This document shows positions 33,999-42,482 of a stretch of DNA of 62,610 nucleotides, piece after piece. Source of the stretch: Candidatus Poribacteria bacterium (GTDB taxonomy: Bacteria > Poribacteria > WGA-4E > WGA-3G); the NCBI GenBank assembly GCA_021295715.1, contig JAGWBV010000021.1, forward strand, positions 1 to 62,610, in the 5' to 3' direction. Below the pieces are notes generated by a model, which did no database searches, was not told the DNA's origin, and saw only the letters and a program-made list of their open reading frames with translations. The position numbers and the translations under genes are program-made. The number at the start of each line of letters is the position of its first letter. The first letter of the stretch is position 1.

Positions 33999-35546
33999 AT
34001 GAACAACACGAGTATCACCCGCTCGATTTTACTGCTAATCTTTCTCTGGACTGGCTCCGGTATTTGCCAAACACTACCAGATAACACCACCTTCTATGGT
34101 ACGTTCGTTGATACCCAAGATGGGCATCCTATTCCCGAGGTCCTCGTGCGCGTTGATGCTGAAAAAATTGAGCAGGCCTATCCTGATCGGGAGTTCGCAC
34201 ACGCAACCGTAACGGACGCGAAAGGCACTTTTTCGATTACCATTCCCAGCGAAAACCAAACCTACCACGCCTTCTCACTCATGGCACTCCATCCACAGTA
34301 TCAAGCGAAACGCTTACGAAAGGAAATGTCCCCCAGTAAAAGCAAATATAATGTGGGGGTGATTGCGTTGAGACGGACACTCCCCTTACAAGGCAACGTT
34401 TCTGGTGAGAAAAATGTCGTTGGACTTGTTGTGAACCTGAAAATGCACGACAAATCAGCGGACTTCTTTCGCGCCGCTGCACCGATTGAACACGCTGTGA
34501 AGACCGATCCGACGGGAAATTTCCATTTTGCCGAGCTCTACCCAATCGAATACACCTTGACAATTTCCCGGAACGGTCTTATCATAGCCTTTATAGAGTC
34601 CATTCATCCACAAAAACAGGCACAGGTTTCTATCCGCCTACCACAATTGCAGACCTTACGCGGCACAGTTGTCGATGCGCAAGAACGACCCATAGCAGAT
34701 GCCCAGATCCACGCAACTCGGCACACTGAAACTGGGCACGGGGTACGCCTCTCATCAGCGCAAACAAACGAGGCAGGCAACTTTCAGATGGAAGTCGTAG
34801 AGACTGAGCCGCGACTTCTCTCACTTGAAGTCAGCAAAAAGGGATTCTTTTCAAGAGTATACCAGAACGTAGACATCGGTAAGATGCCGCCAATTTTACC
34901 ACTCAAGGAAGGGGCGAGTATTAAAGGGCGTGTGACCCTCCCGCAGAATATACCGCCCGATGGGCAGTATGCTGTGAAAGTGTTCTCCATAGACGCACCG
35001 ATGGAGCCAAGCCTGAATCCGTTAGTATTATACAAACCCATTTTGTCAAGACACTTTCCTGTGACGGAATCTACTTTTGTTGTTGATGGACTATTTGCGG
35101 AAAAATATACGCTCTATATCGTTGGAGACGGCATCTCGGCAACCCGATTTGACGCGGACGTCTTGATGAATCCTGAACAGTTCCCTGTTATAGCCGATCA
35201 ACCCACGACAACACTACAAGGACAAATTTTCTGGGCAGATACAGGTCAGCCTGTCCACGATGCCATCATTTCGCGTTCATGGTATCCTTGGGAATTACAC
35301 CCGTATGATATGTCAATGACACTGGATCGATTTGAAGTAAAAACGGACACACATGGCAAATTTGAATTCCACAATCTAACACAGGCGAGTTATCAACTTC
35401 ATATCCGTGCTGTTGATGCAGTATTTGAAGGGACGGCAGAACGTTATCAACGGACACTGATTCACAAACAGGTTGAAATTCCTGCCTCTGATACCGAATA
35501 TCGCATCTACATAGGCAGGCGAGACGGCACCCCCTTTGCAAAGTAG
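33999..35546 (+). CDS. Secreted protein with carboxypeptidase-regulatory-like beta domains
   Basis: 515 residues: signal peptide (SITRSILLLIFLWTGSGICQ), then repeated transthyretin-like beta-sandwich units of the carboxypeptidase D regulatory type. These are seen as YGTFVDTQDGHPIPEVLVRVD, LRGTVVDAQERPIADAQIHA, IKGRVTLPQNIPPDG and LQGQIFWADTGQPVHDAIIS. Typical DA.GTFSI, EAGNFQMEV and HGKFEFHNL closing strands are present. No peptidase motif. Probably an extracellular adhesion or scaffold protein. AAGGA lies eight bases before the ATG. It heads a run of secreted genes on the same strand. Confidence 0.8.
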   Translation: MNNTSITRSILLLIFLWTGSGICQTLPDNTTFYGTFVDTQDGHPIPEVLVRVDAEKIEQAYPDREFAHATVTDAKGTFSITIPSENQTYHAFSLMALHPQYQAKRLRKEMSPSKSKYNVGVIALRRTLPLQGNVSGEKNVVGLVVNLKMHDKSADFFRAAAPIEHAVKTDPTGNFHFAELYPIEYTLTISRNGLIIAFIESIHPQKQAQVSIRLPQLQTLRGTVVDAQERPIADAQIHATRHTETGHGVRLSSAQTNEAGNFQMEVVETEPRLLSLEVSKKGFFSRVYQNVDIGKMPPILPLKEGASIKGRVTLPQNIPPDGQYAVKVFSIDAPMEPSLNPLVLYKPILSRHFPVTESTFVVDGLFAEKYTLYIVGDGISATRFDADVLMNPEQFPVIADQPTTTLQGQIFWADTGQPVHDAIISRSWYPWELHPYDMSMTLDRFEVKTDTHGKFEFHNLTQASYQLHIRAVDAVFEGTAERYQRTLIHKQVEIPASDTEYRIYIGRRDGTPFAK

Positions 35547-35601: not shown

Positions 35602-36363
35602 ATGACACATAAACACTTCTTTACACACACACTCACAACAATGATCCTTATCTTATTTCTCCTTCTTCCCGCAAATGCTGGCTTGCACGGCATACTCAAA
35701 GATGGAGAAAGAATCATCCTTCAGGAAATTGCCATTCCTGAAGCCGCAGGCGACTACTACCGAAGACCCGGCAAATTAATAGCATCCGAAGGCGAAAATC
35801 GCTGGTTCGGACCGGAAATCGACAGCCGAGTGCTTTGTCACATGATTGCGCACCCATTTAACGACGCAGGATTTTTTGACATCATCTATACCAGAGAAGA
35901 AGCCAAAGTCTGGCCCTCCTCAAGACCCGGGAGAGTCTGGTGGTATCGGAAACAGGAGTGGCGTTTCGCAACTGCCGACACACCTTGGGGCACAGACACC
36001 GTTCGCCTCATCCTCGTATCCGAGATCGGTTGGACAGATATCGACTCCGGAAACAGCACTACTGGATTCCCTTGGAGCGGATTCGAGGAACACTGGCGCG
36101 ATGGAGACTTCGTGAAATCCAAAGCCGAAATAATCGGTTACTACCCCTACGAGCGCAACGGCAAAAGATACCTCGCGCCGAAGTATTACAAAAGTGGAAC
36201 CTTGGACTACATCTGTGCGACTGGGACAGGACGGCTTAACTTGAAGGTACTCGGTCACACCGAAGGACACTTTACAGATCCAGTATTTCGTTCCAAATCT
36301 AACCAACTCAGTCGCCGCGAAAAAGGCACAGATAATTGGTACGACTGTCTGCCCTTAAAATAA
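35602..36363 (+). CDS. Secreted protein of unknown family A (copy 1)
   Basis: 253 residues with a signal peptide (TTMILILFLLLPANAG). The conserved blocks shared with copy 2 at 37352 are WFGPEI, HPFN/NPFN, TPW.T, GW..I, TTG(F/Y)PWSG.E.HWRDG, IG...Y, YYK.G and a terminal WYDC. Aromatic-rich with few cysteines, so probably a beta-rich extracellular domain. I recognise no named family. It alternates with family B genes as A-B-A'-B'. No ribosome site is visible before the ATG. Confidence 0.72.
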   Translation: MTHKHFFTHTLTTMILILFLLLPANAGLHGILKDGERIILQEIAIPEAAGDYYRRPGKLIASEGENRWFGPEIDSRVLCHMIAHPFNDAGFFDIIYTREEAKVWPSSRPGRVWWYRKQEWRFATADTPWGTDTVRLILVSEIGWTDIDSGNSTTGFPWSGFEEHWRDGDFVKSKAEIIGYYPYERNGKRYLAPKYYKSGTLDYICATGTGRLNLKVLGHTEGHFTDPVFRSKSNQLSRREKGTDNWYDCLPLK

Positions 36364-36377
36364 CCGAATTATAATTC

Positions 36378-36435
36378 GCTGGCGGGGTTCTAACCCCACA
36401 CCATAATTTGCTGGCGAGGTTTCTAACCTTGTTCC
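36378..36435. repeat. Two tandem degenerate F3 units
   Basis: GCTGGCGGGGTTCTAACCCC and GCTGGCGAGGTTTCTAACC, about 30 bp apart, between A and B of the secreted module. The distal pairs rely on wobbles or mismatches. Confidence 0.65.
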
Positions 36436-36445
36436 TGTGAACGAA

Positions 36446-37138
36446 ATGAAAAACATCACGCGCACATTCAACGCACTCATTATCGTTTATATCTTTCTCC
36501 TTTCGGCGGGGAACACGAATGCCGCTTTCTGGGAAGACCACTTTGAACAAGAGGCAGTAGATGACTGGCAGCACATGGGAAACGATTCCGTCTGGAGGGT
36601 CGAGGATGGGTTTTTAAGGGCAGAAATTCAGGCACAGAACCAATGGAGTATCATATTTGAACGCTACCAACTCATCGCCTATCCCGGTCCCTATAATGAT
36701 TTTACAATTACCCTTGAAACCGTCGGCGCGGCGCAAGCGCGATTCGGCATTGCACTCGCAAAGCACTTCCAAAATCCTGTGGCCGAGGTAGCGGAGAACG
36801 GCTACTACCTCTTTTTCACAAACGATATGCAAGCCTCAAGAGACAGCGGCGTGTTTGTGGGACCCGAACGACGCTGGGACACCGACGCACTCCAACAAAT
36901 GGAACTCCACTTCAAGGACGGCAGATTCCAATTGAATGCGGATGGCGAATCACGCCTCGACTTCAGGGACGCGAACTTCGATCACATTGATACCATCGCC
37001 TTCGTACTCGCCGGATTTGTCACAGAGGACGTTAACACAGGGAGTGCGTGGGTAGACACGTTTACGATTGACGGACTCTCAGTCTCACCGAAACGAAAAT
37101 TAACAACCACATGGGCACACTTGAAGCAGCAGCCTTGA
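36446..37138 (+). CDS. Secreted LamG/DUF1080-like protein of family B (copy 1)
   Basis: 230 residues from ATG 36446 (a GTG at 36437 is possible). The signal peptide ends near GNTNA. The mature part starts FWEDHFEQEAVDDWQHMGND and has SVWRVEDGFLRAE, FTITLE, FGIAL and LDFRDANFDHIDTIAFVLAG. These fit a concanavalin-like jelly-roll of the 3-keto-disaccharide hydrolase or LamG type, seen in sugar-binding extracellular domains. Its paralogue is at 38201. Enzymatic activity is not evident. Confidence 0.68.
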   Translation: MKNITRTFNALIIVYIFLLSAGNTNAAFWEDHFEQEAVDDWQHMGNDSVWRVEDGFLRAEIQAQNQWSIIFERYQLIAYPGPYNDFTITLETVGAAQARFGIALAKHFQNPVAEVAENGYYLFFTNDMQASRDSGVFVGPERRWDTDALQQMELHFKDGRFQLNADGESRLDFRDANFDHIDTIAFVLAGFVTEDVNTGSAWVDTFTIDGLSVSPKRKLTTTWAHLKQQP

Positions 37139-37242
37139 TATTTGTTGGTTGGCGATTAGCAATTATGGTAGATATCAGAATTAAGTAGACACTTCGGAGT
37201 CGGTGCGGTTAGGAAACCGTACCTACTTTCTAATCAAAAACG

Positions 37243-37350
37243 GAGCCCGCAACAACGGCGCGGGGTTTTTGCTTGGGCGTTTCTTCAACTCGAATACGAG
37301 AACCTTCAAAGTTCATAAGGGTCTTTCTTATCCGCAAGGTAAAATTAAAA
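37243..37350 (+). repeat. F1 repeat with nested F5, abutting a start codon
   Basis: GCCCGC...GCGGGG hairpin of the AACAACGG type, then F5 (TTTTTGCTTGGGCGTTTCTTC). The tail CCGCAAGGTAAAATTAAAA ends one base before the ATG at 37352. Confidence 0.8.
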
Positions 37351-37351
37351 G

Positions 37352-38095
37352 ATGTTGCGTAAAAACTTGGATCTGATTTTTAATGCATTTCTACTCGTTG
37401 TGGTGCTTGCCATTGCGTTTTGGACCACCTACGCCGGAGCGAGATTGAACCCTGGGGAAAGTGCGAGACCCGCAAATTCAGGGTTCTACTATAGAACCCC
37501 GGGTGTAAGCGGCACGTGGTTCGGACCTGAAATCAACTCGCTTACCCTCTGCTCCGGTGTCCACAACCCTTTTAACAATAGAGGGCGGTTCGACATCGTA
37601 GAAACCATCGAAAATGCCGCGGTGTCCCGTTCAAGTATCCGAGGCGCGCTCCGTTGGTATCGTGGACAACGGTGGTATTTCGGCACGGACGACACGCCGT
37701 GGGAGACAAACTTCTCCTACATTACGCTCCGCGACGATTTAGGATGGGATGAAATTAGTGTAGGGGGAGGAACAACCGGCTATCCGTGGAGCGGCATCGA
37801 ACGACACTGGCGGGACGGGAATATTATCCGAGCACAAGCCTCTGTCATCGGCTGGCGGCGGTATGCCCGAGGTGCAGAACGATGGGTCTGTCCGATGTAC
37901 TACAAAATCGGAGGGTGGGAAGGCGAAACCCTTGAAGTCAACTGCAAAACCCTCAGAACATGGTTTCCCCCGGATTGGAACGTCCTGAAACAGAAAGATG
38001 GAGACTTCGGTCCCCCTGTTGAGCGCGAACCCGGGGTCCTGAGTCGAAAAGGAAAGAAAACACAACAGTGGTACGACTGCATCAAAATCAATTAG
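37352..38095 (+). CDS. Secreted protein of unknown family A (copy 2)
   Basis: 247 residues with an N-terminal signal or anchor (NAFLLVVVLAIAFWTTYAGA). Shares family A blocks with the gene at 35602: TWFGPEINS, NPFNNRGRFDIV, DDTPWETN, LGWDEI, TTGYPWSGIERHWRDG, MYYKIG and QQWYDC. The two copies are clearly related but diverged, so the duplication is not recent. The start codon directly follows an F1 tail, which provides the only AAGG upstream. Function unknown. Confidence 0.72.
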   Translation: MLRKNLDLIFNAFLLVVVLAIAFWTTYAGARLNPGESARPANSGFYYRTPGVSGTWFGPEINSLTLCSGVHNPFNNRGRFDIVETIENAAVSRSSIRGALRWYRGQRWYFGTDDTPWETNFSYITLRDDLGWDEISVGGGTTGYPWSGIERHWRDGNIIRAQASVIGWRRYARGAERWVCPMYYKIGGWEGETLEVNCKTLRTWFPPDWNVLKQKDGDFGPPVEREPGVLSRKGKKTQQWYDCIKIN

Positions 38096-38103
38096 GAATC
38101 TCT

Positions 38104-38194
38104 TGCTGACTGCTGATGGATACCGACTGCCAACGGTAGGAGGGATCTCCGAATCCCCACTCTTACTGACCGCTGACTGCTGATTGCCGACAAC
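38104..38194. repeat. Composite F2-F4-F2 repeat
   Basis: F2 words (TGACTGCTGATGG, CGACTGCC), an F4 unit with stem GGGAT/ATCCC around CTCCGA (38144 onwards), then more F2 words. Relative to 1704 the F4 stem pair A-T is swapped to T-A, a compensated change. Confidence 0.75.
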
Positions 38195-38200
38195 TATCTT

Positions 38201-38902
38201 ATGCTAAACAAAAACACAACACTTCTCATACTGTTTTATACGCTCATTCACTGTCCCCTTTCTGTCTTCGCCGAGACGTGGCACGACGATTTCGATGCGG
38301 AAAAACCCGATGCGTGGCGGGTCGTCGGGAACGATTCCATCTGGAAAATCAGCGACGGTTTCTTACACGCGGAGGTCAACCGGGACTGGGATGTCCAATA
38401 CGAACTCTACCAATTCATCGCGCGCCCACCCCCCTACAGAAACTTCACAATCACGATAAACGACTTCGGTGGCGACAAAACACGTTTCGGTTTTTGTGTA
38501 GGACGCCGCTTTCCCGACACTCCAGAAGAAGATCCCTTCTTCTACGTGTTTTTCCCCGATGAAATCAGGGCAAGGCGTTTCGATGGTAAAGGGAGCAGCC
38601 ACCCCTTCCGAACTCGGCTCTCCAGAGAACCACGCACCCGCTGGGAAACGGATGTCCTCTCAAAGATGGAACTGCAATTTAATGCCGGGCATTTCGTGTT
38701 GTTGACAGACGGTAAACTCCGGACAGCATTTCAGGATGCGAACTTTGATAAGATCGAAATTCTCGGTTTCGTCATGGAAGGCATCAACATCGCAAACGAG
38801 TGGGTCGGCGCGGCGTGGGCGGATTCCTTCACCATTTCTGGTCTGAACGTCGCTCCAGAGATAAGATTAACCCTAATTTGGGGAAGACTCAAGCAAAGAT
38901 AA
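38201..38902 (+). CDS. Secreted LamG/DUF1080-like protein of family B (copy 2)
   Basis: 233 residues: signal peptide (LLILFYTLIHCPLSVFA), then ETWHDDFDAEKPDAWRVVGN, DSIWKISDGFLHAEV, NFTITI, TRFGFCVG and AFQDANFDKIEILGFVMEG. It parallels copy 1 along its whole length, including the closing GRLKQ/AHLKQ ending. Likely a secreted carbohydrate-binding jelly-roll. It completes the A-B-A'-B' array; the next gene is an unrelated transporter. Confidence 0.68.
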   Translation: MLNKNTTLLILFYTLIHCPLSVFAETWHDDFDAEKPDAWRVVGNDSIWKISDGFLHAEVNRDWDVQYELYQFIARPPPYRNFTITINDFGGDKTRFGFCVGRRFPDTPEEDPFFYVFFPDEIRARRFDGKGSSHPFRTRLSREPRTRWETDVLSKMELQFNAGHFVLLTDGKLRTAFQDANFDKIEILGFVMEGINIANEWVGAAWADSFTISGLNVAPEIRLTLIWGRLKQR

Positions 38903-40531: not shown

Positions 40532-41254
40532 ATGTCCAAACGCACACTCCTCACAACCATCGTCATCCCCGCACTGCTCATCTCAGGGCTTATCATCTTC
40601 CTCATCAACAACCGAGAGGAACCCTCAGCCGAACTCGTCCTGACACAGCAACAGATTCACTTCGGAACACTCCGAGAATGGGAGGGACCCGTAACACGCT
40701 CCGTAACAGCACGAAACGTAGGCAAATACCCACTCCACATCCAAAGGATTCACATAGGGTGCAGCTACGCCGAAATCACAGGACCAGGGGTCATCCAACC
40801 CGATACAGAAGCCACATTCCAGATACGCCTCAACCCAGAACGTCTGCCCGATGACGAGACCTCAGCAACCGCCACTATCTTCACAGACAGCCCCAAGACC
40901 CCGATTGTGTATCTCACAATTGTTGCTATAGCTAAACGATTCGCGACACTCACGCCGAACATTTGTGAGTTTGGTGATATTCACCCCGATACGATGTATC
41001 AAAAGACCATTGATCTCACTGTGAATGCCCCCCTTGACACATCGGACATCCGCCTTCTCCCATCCGGACATGAAGCACTCACAGGGGAGATAACACCCAA
41101 TCTGCAGACAGATACCTCTCTCATTACAATCCAACTCGGTCCTCTGAAAGACAAAGGTGCCTTTTCATCGCTACTCACTGTCCATTTCCCAAACCAACGA
41201 ACACTCACCCTCCTTGTCACCGCCGAAGTCGTCCCAACTGACCGCCAACGATAG
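40532..41254 (+). CDS. Membrane-anchored DUF1573-like protein
   Basis: 240 residues. One N-terminal transmembrane anchor (LLTTIVIPALLISGLIIFLI) is followed by two Ig-like ASH/DUF1573-type sandwiches. The first shows QIHFGTLREWEGPVTRSV, ARNVGKYPLHIQRIHIGCSY and the usual F..N..G...L.I..V..SC pattern. The second starts ICEFGDIHPD. Probably exported or periplasm-facing; role unknown. The last residues (TDRQR) and stop codon are encoded by an F2/F4 repeat (41235-41304), suggesting that the repeat replaced the original C-terminus. Confidence 0.75.
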   Translation: MSKRTLLTTIVIPALLISGLIIFLINNREEPSAELVLTQQQIHFGTLREWEGPVTRSVTARNVGKYPLHIQRIHIGCSYAEITGPGVIQPDTEATFQIRLNPERLPDDETSATATIFTDSPKTPIVYLTIVAIAKRFATLTPNICEFGDIHPDTMYQKTIDLTVNAPLDTSDIRLLPSGHEALTGEITPNLQTDTSLITIQLGPLKDKGAFSSLLTVHFPNQRTLTLLVTAEVVPTDRQR

Positions 41255-41396: not shown

Positions 41397-42482
41397 ATGG
41401 AAAAACGCTACTTCGATTTCAGGGATATTTTCCAAGTTATCCGCTACGGATTCAGTGGGCGAAAGATCGCAGTTCATTTCATCGGACTCGTTCTCGCATA
41501 TCTAATCTATGAAACTTTGGTGTATCTCAGTCTCGTCATTGTAGGAGGCACCGCCGTGCAGGACTTCTGGAATAAGTATGCACTCCTACCCCTACCACCC
41601 TTCGGTGATGCAGGACTGACGCAGACAACTGAAATCGCAATGTGGATAGGGATAATTGGCTTCGCCTGCATCTTCTTCTTAGCAAGCACCGTGGCTTCCA
41701 AAATCACCATTGAACAACTCCGCGGGGAGATCTTCTTTTCGGTCGGAGATGCCTTAAATTTTCTCAAGGGGCATTGGAAATCCGTTTTCGGCGCGTTTAT
41801 CGGCTTACTTCTCATCCAAATATTTCTCGCGATAATCCCCCTCAGCATCGCGGGGCTCGCGAAGTTACCAGCAGTGGGAAAACCGTTTCTCATGCTCACC
41901 TCACTGCTCATGCCAATCGGATTTTTCCTCGGTCTCCTGATGGCGTTGATAGCGATCGTTTTCAGTGTCAGTTTACTCTTTGTGCCAGCCGTTGCCGCAA
42001 CGACAGGTGCCGATGCGTTTGAAATCATTTATCAGCAATTCGCCATCGTTTGGAACAAACCTTGGCTGTTAGTGTGTTATGAGGCGATGTTGCTCCTTAT
42101 CAAATTTATTTTTGTCCCCATTTGGGCGTTCTTTTGTCTCACAGGCTTTTCCATCGTGATACTGCCGACACGTCTCTTCCATACCGAAGCGATGCAACAG
42201 TTCATGAGCTACGCGAACTTATGGCTCGGTGGGGCTGTCGAAAGGATAGCAACACTACACTATATTAACAGTCTCGGGATCTTCAACACCGGTACAAGCG
42301 ATCAAATGCTGACACTAACAGGGATAGCGACAATTACGACCCCAGTGACCGCTATTTTCCTGACGATCACGCTCCTCATGAGTGTGGGATTGATAATTGC
42401 ATATCTGTTTTCAATCGCTTCCGCCGGAAACACGATAATTTATACAATAGTGCGAAAGAAAATCGACGGACAGAATTTGTGA
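41397..42482 (+). CDS. Polytopic membrane protein of unknown function
   Basis: 361 residues with about eight hydrophobic segments, among them VHFIGLVLAYLIYETLVYLS, IGIIGFACIFFLASTVAS, FGAFIGLLLIQIFLAIIPLS, LMALIAIVFSVSLLFVPAVA and a C-terminal ITLLMSVGLIIAYLFSIASA. A soluble loop follows the second segment. No channel, transporter or enzyme signature is recognised. It has its own promoter and lies about 120 bp before secA on the same strand, so a role in the envelope is possible but not shown. Confidence 0.75.
   Translation: MEKRYFDFRDIFQVIRYGFSGRKIAVHFIGLVLAYLIYETLVYLSLVIVGGTAVQDFWNKYALLPLPPFGDAGLTQTTEIAMWIGIIGFACIFFLASTVASKITIEQLRGEIFFSVGDALNFLKGHWKSVFGAFIGLLLIQIFLAIIPLSIAGLAKLPAVGKPFLMLTSLLMPIGFFLGLLMALIAIVFSVSLLFVPAVAATTGADAFEIIYQQFAIVWNKPWLLVCYEAMLLLIKFIFVPIWAFFCLTGFSIVILPTRLFHTEAMQQFMSYANLWLGGAVERIATLHYINSLGIFNTGTSDQMLTLTGIATITTPVTAIFLTITLLMSVGLIIAYLFSIASAGNTIIYTIVRKKIDGQNL

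Follow-up and report, generated by a model that had tools for sequence, protein, structure and literature searches.

The window analyzed is a stretch of 62,610 nucleotides from a Candidatus Poribacteria genome of 5.1 Mb (G000). The features of the locus studied within it are summarized in Table 1. Genes of two families, A and B, alternate twice on the plus strand, and the four open reading frames are found as a preliminary description of this DNA had stated. The sequence motifs that it quoted are likewise all present, being WFGPEI, TTG[FY]PWSG.E.HWRDG and WYDC in the A family, and GNDS.W...DGFL.AE and DANFD.I in the B family. A signal peptide had been assigned to each protein, and all four do begin with a hydrophobic, signal-like stretch. 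A crude rule finds such an N-terminus in 79/80 A-family and 121/136 B-family ORFs, compared with 208/430 background ORFs. A and A' are identical at 100 of 247 positions over their full length (40%, E = 2e-57), and B and B' at 89 of 229 (39%, E = 3e-58). A scan for promoters and terminators across the locus gave counts close to chance or modestly above it.

Table 1. Genes and peptide features of the A/B locus, numbered from the first nucleotide of the window.
Feature	Coordinates	Strand	Properties
CpD	33999..35546	+	Several carboxypeptidase-regulatory-like (transthyretin/Ig-like) domains; exported; Pfam PF13620, E = 4.8e-28
A (A1)	35602..36363	+	253 aa; orphan protein, exported; untagged, C-terminus WYDCLPLK; many relatives lack A1
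B (B1)	36437..37138	+	233 aa; exported concanavalin-like jelly-roll protein; C-terminal tag
C-terminal tag of B	37097..37135	+	KLTTTWAHLKQQP; strict pattern match at G000:C21:37100-37126
A' (A2)	37352..38095	+	247 aa; orphan protein, exported; part of the conserved core; C-terminus WYDCIKIN; model all beta
B' (B2)	38201..38902	+	233 aa; exported concanavalin-like jelly-roll protein; C-terminal tag
C-terminal tag of B' (divergent form)	38864..38899	+	RLTLIWGRLKQR; separate low-confidence helix predicted, residues 219-232
DUF1573-domain protein	40532..41254	+	Pfam PF07610, E = 1.6e-8; frequent but not constant neighbor of A/B clusters

We counted the co-occurrence of A and B in 97 genomes and mapped 60 neighborhoods. 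A is present in 56 genomes and B in 60, and every genome with A also has B (56/56), the genes lying tightly adjacent. The two families therefore do belong together, as first suggested. The preliminary description proposed that finding them usually apart would speak against a functional pair. This is not the case for A. It is the case for B, which often occurs without A, both in B-only genomes and in tandem B arrays (G040 and G055). From the 60 neighborhoods a conserved block emerges, CpD-(A1)-B1-A2-B2, and in most genomes its genes are closely spaced. Where the contigs of relatives are intact, CpD nearly always lies directly upstream of the A and B genes. The A-B-A'-B' set as first delineated thus exists, but it left out CpD, which is a member of the conserved block.

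The core kept in relatives is CpD-B1-A2-B2. Between CpD and B1 no A gene was found in 13 congeneric genomes, nor in either of the family's other two genera, and A is a less constant partner than B. In a tree of the B proteins B1 and B2 form separate clades, each spanning three genera. A first tree of the A proteins places A1 as the sister group of all A2. Once the long rows are dropped, joining all A copies of the genus (g1) is slightly better, and is not rejected (p-AU = 0.587). The A tree does not decide whether A1 and A2 split long ago or A alone was duplicated later, within the genus; A1 may be a genus-level duplicate. Duplication of A-B as a single unit is not established, because A1 is missing from relatives that retain B1 and B2, and the A tree is undecided. 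The earlier argument that both members had been kept through duplication of the pair is consequently not supported. B1 and B2 have been kept throughout the family, and A1 has not.

Structure prediction had been suggested as a check on both families. The model of A2 (pLDDT 83.7) is mostly beta. Comparison of the full-length model with the PDB by Foldseek gave no relative at E < 0.1 (best E = 0.12), comparison with structures by VIA gave Z of at most 2.9, and in BFVD there was nothing at E < 0.01 (best E = 0.049). No known family was found for A among Pfam, NCBIfam or PDB sequences, and a weak match to Zincin_1 (E = 0.11), falling below the cut-off, was set aside. Judged by its predicted structure against the PDB and BFVD, A is without a recognizable relative in sequence or fold; we do not claim a new fold.

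The jelly roll previously assigned to B agrees with the model of B2 (pLDDT 85.2), where it spans residues 24-216. The model resembles the laminarinase 3azx (Foldseek E = 3e-7) and 3d6e (VIA Z = 15.6, rmsd 2.9 over 164 residues). On this predicted structure B is a concanavalin-type jelly roll of the carbohydrate-binding type, as are GH16 enzymes and LamG domains. It differs from that superfamily in having no significant sequence match. Searches of Pfam, NCBIfam and PDB sequences revealed no known family for B, and no Pfam family, including the laminin G-like PF13385, matched B or B' at E up to 1. The GH16 catalytic motif ExDx(x)E is absent from both proteins, and the pattern E.D.{1,2}E occurs in only 15/136 members of the B family. 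B is thus rejected as a GH16 enzyme, and since the motif is missing it is more probably a binding protein than a hydrolase.

These properties might suggest that A-B-A'-B' is simply a duplicated pair of glycan-binding lectins. That would account for the adjacency of A and B in all genomes with A, and for the jelly roll. Yet there are tandem B arrays without A, A1 is absent where B1 stays, and the trees reveal no joint duplication. No named system with the A-B pairing was present in the family libraries searched (Pfam and NCBIfam), consistent with the initial statement that none was recognized. We consider the lectin pair an unlikely description of the locus; under it the C-terminal sequence shared by B and B' would be incidental. 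That C-terminus was overlooked in the preliminary description. It is the more consequential feature, and a larger finding than the pairing of A and B.

In the B family 135/136 proteins end with W-x-x-[LIVMF]-[KR] followed by one to seven residues, the sole exception being cut by the end of a contig. The corresponding C-terminal pattern W..[LIVMF][KR] is found in 0/80 A-family proteins. Members of the B family were chosen independently of the pattern, and in them W and K are invariant and L and T variable; the invariance of W and K extends over 50 aligned B proteins of ~31-90% identity. In orthologs of B the W, L and K are 97-100% conserved compared with 78-82% for the body of the protein, and the residues around them vary. 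The model of B2 finishes in a 14-residue helix set apart from the jelly roll, with pLDDT near 55. Other ORFs within the A/B neighborhoods that are unrelated to B share the same type of ending.

The ending is widespread in the genome. A strict DNA pattern encoding L-[TA]-T-x-W-[GA]-x-[LI]-K gave 98 matches in the 5.1 Mb of G000, and one in the reversed control. All 98 matches were fetched and lie in frame near a stop codon, 96 with 1-8 residues remaining and two with 11 and 17. The consensus is V-[ED]-[PA]-x-[GD]-K-L-[TA]-T-T-W-[GA]-x-[LI]-K followed by 1-8 residues, with a core of roughly KLTTTWGxLK; since T, W and K are set by the pattern, their conservation in G000 is in part built in. Conservation also extends beyond the pattern, with V at -6 in 77/98 and K at -1 in 78/98. 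Synonymous codons vary freely and 96/98 of the 27-mers are distinct, and hence selection acts on the peptide. For the same reason we reject an element acting as RNA or DNA in the 3' end as the cause of the tag. We regard the tag as almost certainly a real, selected peptide feature.

The proteins carrying the tag are diverse. When the 86 carriers of at least 200 residues were compared by BLAST without their tags, 19 clusters resulted, of which the LamG-like proteins (51/86) and PD40 propellers (12) are the largest. Pfam identified LamG, PD40, CBM_4_9, CBM9, F5/8-C, Big_12 and LTD domains among them. A signal-like N-terminus was found in 84/86 by the crude rule, compared with 48% (208/430) of background ORFs, and the two exceptions also begin with hydrophobic sequence. 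Several carriers are tandem duplicates, and some of the sharing of the tag is descent, because so many carriers are LamG-like. One could therefore regard the tag as mere shared ancestry, a conserved final strand or linker in an expanded LamG-like family, and as playing no part in signaling. This is disfavored, and we consider it very improbable. The tag is also carried by PD40 propellers and by CBM4_9, CBM9, F5/8-C and Ig/LTD proteins, and in the B orthologs its W, L and K are conserved well beyond the rest of the protein.

The tag pattern is present in all 84 Poribacteria genomes searched (G000 plus 83 relatives), with 1-119 copies each. By comparison, it occurs at most once in each of 61 genomes that do not belong to the phylum, six times in all, which is the level of chance. 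In two genomes from other families, outside the class of the window (G081 and G082), all 24 of the matches read are at extreme C-termini, and nearly all of their carriers with a complete N-terminus open with a signal-like stretch. By the pattern matches, the tag is phylum-wide in Poribacteria. A further genome, G071, has a single match, so the tag is not required in number everywhere. None of the NCBIfam models matched the tag in seven carriers. Six tag strings were absent from the papers that we searched by text, and the tag is not described in the Poribacteria literature that we searched. A tag shared by so many exported proteins points to an undescribed protein-delivery tag, and from its sequence and distribution we think it probably acts as a sorting or docking signal.

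The tag may be compared with known C-terminal signals. LPXTG, PEP-CTERM and GlyGly-CTERM signals comprise a motif, a transmembrane helix and a basic cluster (PMC3237569). Like these, the tag occurs on many non-homologous exported proteins (98 carriers, 19 clusters), with many clients per genome and a patchy taxonomic spread tied to lineage. It differs in having neither a transmembrane helix nor a long basic tail, the stop codon following after 1-8 residues in 96/98, and in having no known cognate enzyme.

The type IX secretion system (T9SS) offers a second comparison. Its C-terminal domain (CTD; Por_Secre_tail, TIGR04183) occurs in the same genomes and is likewise a C-terminal signal for delivery past the inner membrane, on proteins with an N-terminal signal peptide. 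An earlier study reported T9SS-type domains in Poribacteria, though without structural Por genes (Kamke et al. 2014, PMC3909097). We find 9-77 TIGR04183 domains in each of 20 Poribacteria genomes, and SprA-like ORFs in 20/20, mostly of about 2,000-2,300 residues and mostly scoring below the curated cut-off. The tag could be an additional type IX secretion signal, read by an SprA-like translocon. In one tagged protein, L187, the tag follows, by our reading of the sequence, a domain that commonly precedes the T9SS domain in Bacteroidota, which favors such a signal. However, the T9SS domain is folded and about 70 residues long, whereas the tag has ~15 residues and is found on other, mostly smaller proteins. 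The 72-position TIGR04183 model does not match B, B' or five further tagged proteins. In G000 there are 35 CTD sites and 98 tag sites at different places, and no protein with both signals was seen in the coordinate lists. The genes and places being separate, we reject the tag as part of the T9SS domain itself. The number of tags follows that of CTDs only weakly (Spearman 0.49, n = 20), both tracking genome size, and G071 has 27 CTDs and SprA for its one tag. An extra type IX signal is thus quite unlikely.

Encapsulin cargo-loading peptides and the targeting peptides of bacterial microcompartments are very short C-terminal sequences that attach varied cytosolic clients to one receptor. The tag resembles them in its shortness, its C-terminal place and its hydrophobic spacing, but differs in that its carriers have signal peptides and look exported, which speaks against an encapsulin-type cargo peptide. 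The tag could be a retained docking peptide instead of a secretion signal, a helix-like LxxxWxxLK that plugs exported proteins into a single surface scaffold or S-layer-like receptor, in the manner of dockerin and cohesin. It is short and without a membrane helix, a separate tail helix is predicted in B', and the carriers are mostly binding modules. Set against this, the predicted helix of B' is of low confidence. The helical and strand moments of the tag both exceed those of shuffled sequences, and helical amphipathicity is not specifically supported. We consider docking of this kind possible, if somewhat unlikely; sequence alone does not reveal whether the tag is cleaved off, as a sorting signal, or stays on for docking.

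We can suggest how the tag and the CpD/A/B cluster might function together, and think the following scheme reasonably likely. Tagged proteins would leave via Sec, using their signal-peptide-like N-termini. After export a single shared component of Poribacteria would read the tag, acting as a transport or anchoring machine of the outer membrane or as a surface scaffold. This reader would place the tagged proteins, most of which are ligand-binding modules (LamG, CBM, F5/8-C and PD40), on the cell surface. B would be one such client, and the untagged A its dedicated partner. CpD is probably a further surface component, and CpD, A and B together would form a complex for surface recognition or attachment. 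That A and B bind each other is suggested by their adjacency, and we give it an even chance. More tentatively, and with some doubt, we can conceive that Poribacteria possess a delivery system of their own, outside those of sortase, exosortase, rhombosortase and T9SS. Here the helix-free tag V-x-P-x-x-K-L-T-T-T-W-G-x-L-K would be read by one phylum-specific receptor serving ~100 or more surface proteins per cell, CpD/A/B would be a dedicated complex, and A would have a new fold.

Poribacteria are abundant, uncultured symbionts of sponges, and their surface proteins are believed to mediate their existence within the host. As a phylum-wide feature the tag would list at once some 15-120 proteins in each genome that are delivered or lie at the surface. 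Comparative genomics could also use it to find the delivery machine, and the C-terminal sorting signals known so far would gain a short, helix-free class.

The neighborhood map provides two further observations. EamA genes, like those for DUF1573 proteins, are frequent neighbors of A/B clusters. In addition, divergent extra copies of A and B occur at the loci L130 and L133, where CpD and a DUF1573 gene are again nearby.

SprA-like ORFs, corresponding to the T9SS translocon, are present in 20/20 Poribacteria genomes, including that holding the window (G000). They are mostly about 2,000-2,300 aa in length, and the majority score below the family cut-off. Their presence stands against a 2014 single-cell study of Poribacteria, which reported no structural Por secretion genes (PMC3909097). 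G000 also has three ORFs for C25 peptidases of the gingipain type. They are 1,765-2,197 aa long, and each contains a match to the T9SS C-terminal domain.

Two further loci of G000 carry the C-terminal tag. The 742-aa Big_12/LTD protein of L187 ends with the tag, and before the tag comes an FN3-like region. In Bacteroidota, regions of this type are found ahead of T9SS domains, and the arrangement looks as though the tag had been substituted for such a domain. At L222 three TolB-like PD40 propeller genes lie side by side, and all three products end with the variant LLTTxWGxLK. A genome of the same class (G071, family f5) is nearly tag-free, with a single match, and has 27 T9SS domains plus a SprA-like ORF. 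It provides a useful contrast in the search for a tag receptor.

At L114 and L130 at least four B-family genes lie in tandem, adjoined by CpD and DUF1573 genes, and A is absent beside some of these genes or arrays. Within the window, a conserved 361-aa protein of multi-pass appearance has no match in Pfam; the neighbourhood map shows its adjacency to secA retained in relatives.

Coordinates of the features discussed
Feature	Position	Location
SprA-like ORF	G000:C27:22463-26359	outside window
Gingipain-type C25 peptidase	G000:C8:40844-41980	
Gingipain-type C25 peptidase	G000:C29:14151-15203	
Gingipain-type C25 peptidase	G000:C34:20831-21958	
Big_12/LTD protein (L187)	G000:C62:70500-73100	
PD40 propellers (L222)	G000:C151:300-5950	
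Tandem B array (L114)	G040:C68:18066-24148	
Tandem B array (L130)	G055:C92	
361-aa protein	window 41397-42482	between DUF1573 and secA
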